NCBI RefSeq assembly: GCF_005049285.1
Contig: NZ_SOSC01000003.1
Location: forward strand, 310,001-374,000
DNA length: 64,000 nucleotides
Source of the DNA: Halorientalis salina
GTDB lineage: Archaea; Halobacteriota; Halobacteria; Halobacteriales; Haloarculaceae
Direction: 5' to 3'
Part shown: positions 9,134 through 63,706 of the stretch, piece by piece
How the letters are laid out: the number at the start of each line of letters is the position of its first letter
How positions within the stretch are numbered: the stretch's first letter is position 1
The notes under the pieces: generated by a model
The model's database searches: none
Seen by the model: the letters and a program-made list of their open reading frames with translations, nothing else
What the model was told of the DNA's origin: nothing
Position numbers and translations under genes: made by a program

Positions 9134-9270
9134 ATATGAGATATGGTCTCCGTGCGTGAATAGGGGCGACATTTTCATCCACGTCCGGTTTTTGATTATA
9201 CGAGAGACACACTCCGCGAATCTCTTGGAAACAGGGATACACCAGGAACGGTATCGACGAGGGCGGCGAG

Positions 9271-9391
9271 GGATGTCAACTACCCCATCCTACTTAGCTC
9301 GGCCTGACGGCCTCGCTCGTTGAGGGTGTCGCCAGAACTCGGAGAGTTCTGGCTGCTAACCAGAAGTCTGCGACTTCTGGTGATGGGGCTT
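9271..9391 (+). repeat. Stand-alone folded element, likely derived from an IS200/IS605-type right end
   Basis: An outer stem CCCCATC (9283-9289) with GATGGGG (9382-9388) encloses three hairpins: a GGCC/GGCC stem at 9301-9312, a perfect 10-base stem of GCCAGAACTC (9331-9340) with its complement (9344-9353), and another perfect 10-base stem of ACCAGAAGTC (9359-9368) with its complement (9372-9381), each with a 3-base loop. The left side starts GGATGTCAA, the same nine bases that end the TnpB element at 63746-63754, and the outline TCAACTACCCC...GGGGCTTG resembles right ends of haloarchaeal TnpB elements from memory. No transposase is adjacent. It lies between the band-7 promoter and tRNA-Arg. 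Confidence 0.6.
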
Positions 9392-9448
9392 GTCCGTGAA
9401 CTCGGCCTCGAACCCGATGCGTTGCTCACGAATTGTTCGCGACAGCAA

Positions 9449-9521
9449 CGGGCGCTAGGGGATTTGAACCCCTGACATCTTGGTCCGGAACCAAGTACTC
9501 TGTCCACTGAGCTAAGCGCCC
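9449..9521 (-). tRNA. tRNA-Arg, anticodon CCG
   Basis: The minus strand folds as a full 73-base tRNA. Acceptor GGGCGCT pairs with AGCGCCC, the D arm is GCTC...GAGT-like, the anticodon stem CTTGG/CCAAG encloses the loop TTCCGGA, giving anticodon CCG (codon CGG), and the T arm is AGGGG-TTCAAAT-CCCCT. The discriminator base is G and CCA is not encoded. No intron is seen. A 7-base stem (9420-9426 with 9444-9450) overlaps the 3' end and could serve in 3' processing or termination. Confidence 0.95.
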
Positions 9522-9555
9522 ACTTCGTGGGGATTGTCGGGTTTCGTTGCAGAGG

Positions 9556-9597
9556 GGGCGACGAATCCAGGCGTTCTGTCCGCTGAACTAGCCGCCC
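9556..9597 (-). pseudogene. Internally deleted tRNA relic
   Basis: On the minus strand, 35 bases upstream of tRNA-Arg, GGGCGGC (9591-9597) is followed by TA, a good D arm (GTTC...GAAC) and CCTGGATTC, the 5' strand of an anticodon stem. The sequence then jumps to GTCGCCC (9556-9562), which can close the acceptor stem with one G-U pair. The anticodon loop, variable region and T arm are missing, so it cannot be a working tRNA. It looks like a second tRNA gene of a small cluster that lost about 35 internal bases. Confidence 0.65.
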
Positions 9598-61088: not shown

Positions 61089-62207
61089 CTACCCGTCCGG
61101 GATGGGACCGAGAAAGTGCCGGAACAGGGCGGTCGGGAGGACTGATGTTCTCCCGACCGCCCGATCTGGCGCGAGTAGCAGGTTCGTCAACACCCACAGA
61201 TTGTACAGCGCCACAGCAAACAGAAAGTAGAACAACCGCACAGAGAACGTCGGTGACGATGTTTTCGGAAGAAACTCTGTGACTTTCCGGTAAGACGTTT
61301 CGATGCCCCAACGGCGGCGATAGGCTTCTGCGAGTGGCTGAGCGACGTCACCTGTGACGTCGCGGTTAGTCACCAGACAAAAATGATCGTCCTCACGGGA
61401 ACGATGTGGGACGACGACGAGCCGGACTGTCGTCCGGCCCGTCGGTGGGTTTGATCGCGCCATCTCGTACTCTGCGACGAACGTGTCTTCGTCGTGGTCG
61501 GCGATGAATCGCTGTACTTTCCGTGTCTGTGGCGCACGCATCACGAACTCAACGTCCAACTTCTCCAGCGTCAACGCGAGATGGACGCGATAGAAGCCAC
61601 GATCGAGGTAGACACGGTTTATCTCGACGTATTCCCGTGCTTGAGAGACGAGTTGGCGGATCGCCTCCGCCAACTCGTCGGTGCCGTTTCCATCCAGTGC
61701 GACCCAACCAAGCGTGAATCGGACGCTCGGATCAACGATACAGATGGTGGCGAACTTGTATGCGGAGTCTGTTCCTCGGTCGGGATCAATCCGGGAAATA
61801 TGCGGTGTGTCGCTGTCACTGTAGTACAGCCAGTCGTGAACGTCGATTGCGACGTCGACTGGCTTTGTGAACAGCCGGTTGCGGGCTGCTTCGGCGAGGA
61901 CAGCATCGCGGACGCGGTCGAACTGGTTGTCGACCGCGTCCGCGTCAAGTCCACGAAGATGGTATAATAGTGCTCTCGCCAGCGGATTCCGTGACTCGAC
62001 TCCAACGTCTACGTCGTTACCACGAGCGAGTTGGTAGGCTTTCGCGCCAGCGTTGGCAAACTCATTGTCGAAGGCAATCCGAGCGAGGACTCGCTGGAAG
62101 TCCTCGCTCGGATAGGTGCCGTTGTCCGCAACATCGAAATCAAGATCCGGAAACAGCATCGACGAGGCGGCACGACTCACCTGTTTTGCTTCGGCTGTCT
62201 CGACCAT
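61089..62207 (-). CDS. DDE transposase, ISH3/IS4-like
   Basis: A 372-residue transposase. VDVAIDVHDWLYYSD carries the first catalytic Asp, INRVYLDRGFYRVHLAL the second, and AYRRRWGIETSYRKVTEFLP the Glu with the Y-R-K signature of the IS4 superfamily. The N-terminal part (NPLARALLYHLRGLD) is helical and binds DNA. The C-terminus LFYFLFAVALYNLWVLTNLLL is the usual closing helix. ATG 62207 (MVETAEAKQ) is favoured; a longer frame starts 16 codons earlier. No internal stop or frameshift, so the element may still move. Confidence 0.88.
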   Translation of the reverse strand: MVETAEAKQVSRAASSMLFPDLDFDVADNGTYPSEDFQRVLARIAFDNEFANAGAKAYQLARGNDVDVGVESRNPLARALLYHLRGLDADAVDNQFDRVRDAVLAEAARNRLFTKPVDVAIDVHDWLYYSDSDTPHISRIDPDRGTDSAYKFATICIVDPSVRFTLGWVALDGNGTDELAEAIRQLVSQAREYVEINRVYLDRGFYRVHLALTLEKLDVEFVMRAPQTRKVQRFIADHDEDTFVAEYEMARSNPPTGRTTVRLVVVPHRSREDDHFCLVTNRDVTGDVAQPLAEAYRRRWGIETSYRKVTEFLPKTSSPTFSVRLFYFLFAVALYNLWVLTNLLLAPDRAVGRTSVLPTALFRHFLGPIPDG

Positions 62208-62248
62208 ATCGAGACAATGACCGCGACGACAATCGATTCTCTCCCGCT

Positions 62249-62273
62249 TCAGCAACTACTGTTTACTCGTGGG
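62249..62273. repeat. Right terminal inverted repeat of the insertion sequence
   Basis: Partner of the repeat at 60877-60901 on the opposite strand. It lies 42 bases upstream of the transposase start, and the transposase promoter must overlap or border it. The outermost bases CTCGTGGG also resemble the hairpin arm of the adjoining TnpB element. Confidence 0.8.
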
Positions 62274-62374: not shown

Positions 62375-63706
62375 ATGAAGCGAGCCAACCAGTTCAACGT
62401 TCGCCTCTGCTCTAAGAAAGAGCGGGAGGTGTTCAAACACTGGTTGGACGCTTCTGCAAGTCTCTGGAACGAGACAAACTACGCTCGCCGCCAAGCCTTC
62501 CTCGAAGACAAAAGCGTCTGGGACGTTGACACCGGCAAACTCGAAGGCAAATACAAAAACGTTCTCAGCAGTAGTGTCGCCCAGCAAATCATCCGGAAAA
62601 ACTCGGAAGCGTGGCGCTCGTTCTTCTCCAGCAACGAAAAATACCATGCTGGAAAACTCGAAGACAAACCCAGCCCACCCGGTTACTGGGGTAACGAAGA
62701 AGACGGACGTGTCCTCCGTTCATACGTCCGAAAAGACCAGTACACCATCGAGTTCGGGGAGCGTTCCCGACTTGAAATCCCGATTGGTTCCGAGTTGAAA
62801 GACAAACTTGGGTTAAATCGGAACGAGCGCCTTCGTGTTGAAATCGCTGGCGACCCAAAATGGCATGGCGAGCAAAACCGGTTAGAACTCGTGTACGACG
62901 AAACCGCTGACACGTTCAGGGCTTTCCAACCAGTCACCGTTGATGATTCTCGACTGGATTCACCACTGGCTTCGGAAGAAGCCGCTCTGGACGTTGGCGC
63001 GAACCACCTCGTCGCCTGCACAGTCTCGACCGGCACTCAATACCTGTACGAAGGGCGTGACCTGTTTGAACAGTTCCGTGAAACCACGGAACAAATCGCG
63101 GACTACCAGTCACTCCTCGACAACCAGCGCGAGTCCAGCAAGCGCATCGACCGGTTATACCGGAAACGCACGAACTGGCGCAACCACGCCCAAGACAGTC
63201 TTGTTCGTGACCTCGTAGAACGCCTGTACAATGAAGGTGTTTCAACGTTGTACGTGGGCGACATCAAGGGCGTCCTCGATACACACTGGAAACCGCGTGT
63301 GAACGCGAAAACGCACAATTTCTGGGCGTTCAGACGGTTCATCGACCGCCTCGAAGACGTGTGCGAAGAGTACGGCATCACGGTTGCAGAAGAATCCGAG
63401 GCATGGACAAGTCAAGAGTGTCCGGCGTGTGGCGAGCGAGAAGATACAATCCGCCACGAGGATTCGTTAACGTGTCCATGTGGATTTGAAGGGCATGCTG
63501 ACCTGGTAGCGTCGGCATCGTTCCTGAGACGGCAGACGAATGAAGTCGGGTCGATGGCACGGCCTGTGTACCTCAAGTGGAACAATCACGAATGGCGGGA
63601 CCATCATAGCCCGCCCTCTCCGGTGGAGACAACAGCCAACGAGGAATACACAAACCAGAGTACCACGGAAAGGAATATCGCTCTCGGCGCGTCTCAGACT
63701 GACTGA
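62375..63706 (+). CDS. tnpB: TnpB-family RNA-guided nuclease (lone TnpB element)
   Basis: A 443-residue protein. N-terminal helical part [43 protein letters not shown]; Ruv[16 protein letters not shown] with the catalytic Asp; RuvC-II reads [13 protein letters not shown], having Gly where the family usually has the catalytic Glu; a zinc knuckle CPACG...CPCG; Ruv[18 protein letters not shown] with the last Asp. A Glu cluster before the knuckle ([11 protein letters not shown]) may take over the missing acid. The tail to [13 protein letters not shown] overlaps the expected guide RNA. No TnpA is present. Confidence 0.9.

Follow-up and report, generated by a model that had tools for sequence, protein, structure and literature searches.

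The window analyzed here, a 64,000-nucleotide stretch of the Halorientalis salina genome, carries a tRNA-Arg (CCG) gene on the minus strand at 9448..9522. Downstream of it, at 9275..9415 on the same strand, lies a remnant of an IS200/IS605-type (tnpB) element that consists of 3′ codons of tnpB (G F E A E F T D K P H) and a right end with an insert; its frame matches ordinary right ends in the same genome and in relatives (L034, L035, L037, L041, and L052). Folding of positions 9261-9400 gave −64.1 kcal/mol on the plus strand (z = −3.48) and −61.5 kcal/mol on the minus strand (z = −5.24), and 0 of 200 shuffles were as stable on either strand, in line with a preliminary description that judged the stems too regular for chance. 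The fold given there is present in all its parts: a predicted 7-bp outer stem (on the plus strand, CCCCATC at 9283-9289 pairing with GATGGGG at 9382-9388), two 10-bp stems without mismatches that each close a 3-nt loop, and a third, smaller hairpin. A tnpB reading frame is absent nearby, as that description also stated.

By its sequence, the element at 9271-9391 is a composite: the minus strand holds a truncated right end of IS200/IS605-type tnpB origin, and inside this sits a smaller, twin-hairpin (DH) element. Read on the minus strand, it begins with a tnpB C-terminal coding remnant of 32 nt (GGGTTCGAGGCCGAGTTCACGGACAAGCCCCA, 9384..9415), which is supported by comparison with other right ends and by an alignment of 14 loci (A3). 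The DH core follows (55 nt, 9329..9383, minus strand), reading TCACCAGAAGTC-GCA-GACTTCTGGT TAGCA GCCAGAACTC-TCC-GAGTTCTGGCGA and recognized by its fold and by a covariance model, R1. The distal part of the right end (9275..9326, minus strand), identified by comparison of right ends and by the 14-locus alignment, has its own terminal hairpin, the closing strand AGGATGGGG, and the end GTTGAC. The core is flanked by the dinucleotide CA on the left (9384..9385, minus strand), a duplicated target or cleavage site, and by CA again on the right (9327..9328, minus strand), as judged by comparison with DH-free right ends and other flanks.

The outline of a TnpB right end had been recognized correctly, but not its strand. 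At other places in the same genome the sequence reads TCAACTACCCCACCCTAAGCGCCTTCGGCGCTTTGAGGGTGGGGCTTGTCCGTGAACTCGGC..., and on the opposite strand there the tnpB gene ends (...GFEAEFTDKPHP...) and leads into the right-end stem and GTTGAC. The minus strand of the window has the same frame, with tnpB codons at 9415-9384 and the right end running on to 9275 and ending in GTTGAC, and the frame TTCACGGACAAGCCCC ... GGGGTAGTTGAC is common to ordinary right ends of this genome and its relatives. The remnant overlaps tnpB 3′ codons and closes the right-end stem, as expected of an IS200/IS605-type tnpB right end. A link proposed earlier between GGATGTCAA at 9271 and the TnpB element at 63 kb does not hold; this motif is a plus-strand right-end terminus at 63 kb but is formed at 9271 by the minus-strand GTTGAC and neighboring base pairs, and the likeness is a coincidence of strand. 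Directly before the 63-kb TnpB (62375-63706), a 388-amino-acid transposase-like frame occupies 61089-62255 on the opposite strand.

Neither a left end (LE) nor a tnpB body was found at the locus; no tnpB open reading frame lies at 9-10 kb, and a tRNA-associated spacer follows the remnant directly. Further right ends in the same genome (G000:C4 near 2610-2735 and C19:224500-224556) retain about 70 nt of tnpB or next to nothing of it; 5′-truncated remnants of this kind are thus common.

The point of insertion can be read from right ends that lack a DH. In the window, the core at 9383-9329 sits between CCCCA and CCCTC, whereas in the DH-free right ends L034, L035, L037, L041, and L052, CCCCA (CCCAT in L041) is directly followed by CCTC or CCCTC. 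Removing the 55-nt core leaves CACA in place of the single CA of these homologs, which therefore lack exactly the core plus 2 nt. In an alignment of 14 right ends from different genomes, the DH lies at the identical point. Their stem pairs are kept (98.3% of cells standard, with 6 cells changed on both sides and most pairs invariant), a covariation signal weaker than that of the DH model set and in the same direction.

The DH itself recurs widely. The repeat unit is 57 bases long, a 55-nt core that starts with T and ends with A, flanked by a repeated dinucleotide that is mostly CA or CG. Of 18 chosen genomes, 8 contain copies that match an exact pattern for it, against 0 matches to the reversed control pattern. 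Among the nine copies from which R1 was built, 98.3% of pair cells are standard and 17 cells are changed on both sides, compared with 26-44% paired in slid controls. Of 146 genomes from the family, R1 matches at least 101, in at least 20 of 22 genera (E ≤ 0.001), counts that are lower bounds, with at most 37 candidates per genome scored; in H. salina it marks about 20 places, many of them given on both strands. Searching GTDB r220 for exact matches returned 44 copies in 43 stretches, every one with a haloarchaeal record title. At the level of the phylum, 61 of 392 genomes match the model (E ≤ 1e-6), all within the order to which H. salina belongs, and none of the 392 has a match outside that order. 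The exact pattern occurs 0 times in viral contigs, and the element had no match in phage and viral collections. The hairpins also occur in longer runs, with up to four at the same right-end point in genome G066, where loci L278 and L279 hold four-hairpin arrays of about 110 nt.

Judged from these sequences, DHs are a real dispersed family throughout haloarchaea; the second copies and conserved pairing whose absence would have refuted the preliminary description were both found, with covarying pairs in the hairpins. We found no account of such a family in the titles and abstract beginnings of the papers listed from the open-license PMC literature, and it is apparently undescribed and clade wide. 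The earlier label of a non-autonomous element fits the inserted twin hairpin but not the composite, which was found only once within its own genome.

Many copies lie in tnpB genes. By hand reading, 17 of the 44 exact copies are in a tnpB open reading frame or right end: six in right ends (L146, the second copy of L159, L177, L179, L181, and L185), eight at a site we call A, at the codon ...QS|GF... (L145, L154, L160, L163, L166, L172, L176, and L184), and three at site B, ...|HR.LP or HRSIP... (the first copy of L159, L178, and L183). An automatic count of tnpB context, which includes matches of read-through hairpins, gave 19 inside, 7 near, and 18 other. Six genomes of about 25 Mb together hold 93 matches to the tnpB Zn ribbon, or roughly 0.5% of their length at an assumed 1.4 kb per tnpB, against which 17 of 44 is a large excess. 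DH subtype tends to follow landing site, which indicates that landings are inherited or site specific; random transposition would not predict that each site tends to have a subtype of its own, and this counts against the movement in trans proposed below. At site A the insert brings 3 extra nucleotides, not 2, which also counts against it. In H. salina, one tnpB gene carries two DHs (G000:C19:84520 and 85125), and a related tnpB at C17:156348 has a single DH, whose position matches that of the second of these.

Internal guide bases read the cleavage site in IS200/IS605 elements, and the DH flanks hint at something similar. Left and right flanking dinucleotides are equal in 54 of 61 distinct main-type copies (shuffled mean, 37.2; maximum, 47 in 2000) and unequal in the other 7. 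The purine of the flank equals the purine of the spacer in 58 of 61 (46 A/A, 12 G/G, and 3 G/A), with a Fisher P value of 2.6e-10 that is too small because DH copies are related by descent. A CA flank goes with TAGCA in 46 of 46 copies, and a CG or GG flank goes with TGGCA in 12 of 15. This match suggests IS200/IS605-like reading of the target, which a C:G plus R.R reading would fit. DHs are probably non-autonomous palindromic repeats moved in trans via single-stranded hairpin DNA; the two hairpins would act as the element ends, the spacer T-R-G-C-A-R may read the target dinucleotide C-R, and TnpB elements would be favored landing sites. Dependence on a Y1 transposase was considered and is unsupported: PF01797 (E ≤ 1e-5; some genomes incomplete) is present in 12 of 18 genomes rich in DHs and in 12 of 19 that have none, and is thus missing at this threshold from 6 of the DH-rich set.

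The missing Y1 dependence also lends some weight to a different mode of movement, in which a DH would be a cut-and-paste (DDE-type) miniature element with the terminal inverted repeats TC(A/G)CCAGAA ... TTCTGG(C/T)GA, and a putative transposase would duplicate a CA/CG target of 2 bp (sometimes 3 bp). The nearly perfect inverted ends, the excess of equal flanking dinucleotides over the shuffled mean, and empty sites that hold one copy of the target all agree with such an element. Terminal-repeat transposition has no need for a spacer base that matches the flank base, however, and we regard this mode as an unlikely alternative to movement as a single-stranded hairpin.

The surroundings of the remnant bear on how it arose. 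In seven relatives from the genus, this place is taken by a tRNA-Arg(CCG) whose sequence is of the GGGCGGCTAGTTCAG...AATCCCTCGCCGCCC type, and the tRNA-Arg of the window is unlike theirs in sequence. Comparison with the relatives shows parts of the usual gene: a 31-nt remnant of its 5′ half at 9567..9597 (minus strand) and, at 9261..9274 (minus strand), ATCCCTCGCCGCCC, which is identical to its 3′ end and would serve the right end as its "guide" side. Both ends of the usual gene thus persist around a different tRNA-Arg, as in a replaced gene at an apparent integration site. Several relatives have tRNA 3′-end fragments repeated behind tRNA-Arg, and in G003 and G004 (L127 and L128) the spacers are TTGCTGTCGCGAACAATTCGTGAGC-like. 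Downstream of tRNA-Arg, loci L127, L128, L130, and L131 have tandem GGTTCAAATCCCTCGCCGCCCG-like tRNA 3′-end fragments that resemble leftover attachment sites. On the minus strand of the window, the 31-nt tRNA remnant comes first, then the different tRNA-Arg, the TTGCTGTCGCGAACAATTCGTGAGC-type spacer, what is left of tnpB, and finally ATCCCTCGCCGCCC, an order that fits a tnpB element landing in a tRNA 3′-end repeat and then losing its body. The element would have stood in the tRNA-Arg 3′-end repeat with the DH already in its right-end stem, and a deletion, perhaps via a short match around CGGGTTC, may have removed the LE and the tnpB body. We consider it fairly probable that this explanation holds as a whole, from the truncated right end with its DH insert and the deletion of the body to the spread of DHs in trans as single-stranded hairpins.

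DHs also interrupt other genes. In five paralogs of Halocatena pleomorpha (L153, L156, L162, L165, and L173), a 55-nt DH with an in-frame TAA lies at the same codon, between W and C. These diverged paralogs belong to a 185-amino-acid family that is DH free in L175 and L199 and to which Pfam and NCBIfam searches gave no name. The halves on either side of the DH are open in all five, and pn/ps is 0.03-0.29 upstream (ps 0.31-0.60) and 0.11-0.15 downstream (ps 0.37-0.50). The five DHs differ in their loops only, which suggests recent, precise landing rather than long residence. In tnpB, seven of the eight site A copies are frameshifted by a 58-nt insert, and one 57-nt copy is in frame; L160, L163, L166, and L176 are otherwise intact, and L154, L172, and L184 are not. 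At site A, L163 versus L166 gives pn/ps of 0.12 before and 0.26 after the DH; at site B, L159 versus L183 gives 0.48 before and 0.25 after. Open, in-frame DHs of 57 nt occur in L109, L190, L242, and the second copy of L062; the one in L190, at 1981, lies in a gene that we take from its motif to be acyl-CoA-synthetase-like. Rickettsia palindromic elements are known for inserts that always stay in frame; the idea that DHs do likewise was rejected, as inserts of 53, 55, and 58 nt are found.

A codon-bias screen for DHs in coding sequence was weak, with 0 of 158 in its first version and 8 of 163 coding on both sides in its second (6 of these 8 in the same strand and frame, three in phase 1 and three in phase 2), and a homology screen returned 56 frames, mostly spurious or hairpin on hairpin, of which the known tnpB frames, the Halocatena family, and L190 were retained.

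Such genes raise the idea that DHs are archaeal skipped mobile inserts, tolerated passengers homing to fixed points between codon positions 2 and 3, which the ribosome bypasses from one synonymous codon to the other or which are spliced out, leaving the protein intact and the host gene functional. In its favor are the open halves and low pn/ps on both sides of the DH in the Halocatena paralogs despite the in-frame TAA, the otherwise intact genes among the frameshifted site A copies, and four sites at which the insert falls between codon positions 2 and 3 so as to give the pairs GGU/GGC, CAU/CAC, CAU/CAC, and UGU/UGC. Yet the DH copies resemble one another far more closely than the codons around them do, so insertion may postdate divergence and selection may predate insertion. 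Several DH-bearing tnpBs have decayed (L154, L172, L184, L111, and L083), L107 and L110/L111 misfit the codon rule when read by eye, and L109, L145, L190, and L242 are open and in frame and need no skipping. We consider skipping improbable. An archaeal bulge-helix-bulge intron, assessed by eye, was provisionally set aside: exon pairing is seen for one Halocatena copy, but its paralogs do not preserve it.

The preliminary description also raised an orphan guide-RNA scaffold that is still transcribed, a reading that finds no support. As a working omega-RNA, the right end would be transcribed with tRNA-Arg and would guide a TnpB made elsewhere to sites like ATCCCTCGCCGCCC, the tRNA-Arg 3′ end; the right-end stem and GTTGAC end are intact, the genome is rich in TnpBs (27 Zn-ribbon matches), and ordinary right ends of the same frame exist there. 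However, the tnpB 3′ sequence left on the 5′ side of the insert amounts to just 32 nt, an LE was not seen, the element matches no Rfam family at the gathering threshold or at E ≤ 5, including omega-RNAs RF02656 and RF02657, and the guide-like sequence is no longer in the present tRNA-Arg. With the LE, the tnpB body, and most of the scaffold gone, a working orphan guide RNA is very unlikely. Less likely still is a regulatory RNA or processed tRNA-Arg trailer with its own function: the element folds strongly, follows tRNA-Arg immediately on its 3′ side, and shares its strand, but the composite is found in 0 of 7 genus relatives within 420 nt after tRNA-Arg, and conservation of the hairpins tracks the dispersed DH family. 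The composite in the window is most likely a relic without present function, an ordinary one hosting one representative of a repeat family of haloarchaea that is apparently undescribed.

Paired hairpins that move, and that are also found inside genes, are known from REPIN/RAYT pairs and from mitochondrial double-hairpin and byp elements. These occur in other domains of life than DHs, and REPIN/RAYT pairs differ further in that DHs show no link to a Y1 transposase (PF01797 in 12/18 DH-rich and 12/19 DH-free genomes). The closest known kinds, to which the DH family is related in kind, are dimers of CGTC-tagged REP repeats and the SMR-A repeats of Haloquadratum, the latter compared by description only. 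According to the available part of their description (Di Nocera 2013, PMC3733652), CGTC REPs resemble DHs in their hairpins, which are short, perfect, and tagged on the outside by a CGTC-like sequence (CGTC or CATC in DHs), in being mostly head-head dimers, in having intragenic copies, and in having no dedicated transposase known. DHs are likewise dispersed paired hairpins with the tags outside (CG/CA plus T on the left and A plus CG/CA on the right). The window DH has 10-bp stems and 3-nt loops, compared with 8-9 bp and 4-5 nt in CGTC REPs; DHs do not follow the CGTC rule that the first two stem positions are complementary A/T (the DH stem foot is ACCAGAA) and, unlike CGTC REPs as described there, have a fixed spacer, TRGCAR, tied to the flank (PMC3733652). 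DHs are archaeal, while in the accessible text of that paper archaea are named in the reference list only, and its author reports no Y1 link for CGTC repeats (PMC3733652).

SMR-A of Haloquadratum walsbyi, as portrayed in the available part of its report (Dyall-Smith 2011, PMC3119063), is transposase free with inverted ends and is inserted inside near-terminal palindromes of IS605-type elements, a setting shared by the DHs of the 14 aligned right ends and of 6 of the 44 exact copies. Its mobilization is called enigmatic there (PMC3119063). By description, SMR-A (HqIRS42/43/55) is about 110 bp long and is said to make no target duplications (PMC3119063), versus 57 bp with CA repeated in the window DH; the four-hairpin array of G066 at the same right-end point is close to it in size. 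PATEs, which include terminal-only IS605-type remnants, resemble the composite as short IS605-type ends without tnpB; they have palindromes near both termini, whereas the composite has a right end only, with no LE between tRNA-Arg and the tnpB remnant (PMC3119063, in the part available). Like the sotRNA or omega-RNA of haloarchaeal tnpB (RF02656 and RF02657), as given in the available part of PMC12558985, the composite overlaps the tnpB 3′ end and the right end, but it has no Rfam match, and its scaffold is truncated and DH interrupted.

Together, these observations point to minute mobile hairpin pairs in haloarchaea that favor TnpB elements, relatives of Cas12, and sit inside their guide-RNA ends. 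The match of spacer and target offers a testable rule for site choice by a gene-less 55-base element and may bear on how SMR-A and CGTC repeats spread, and the DH-bearing genes that are apparently conserved on both sides allow the skipping of an insert in archaea to be tested directly.
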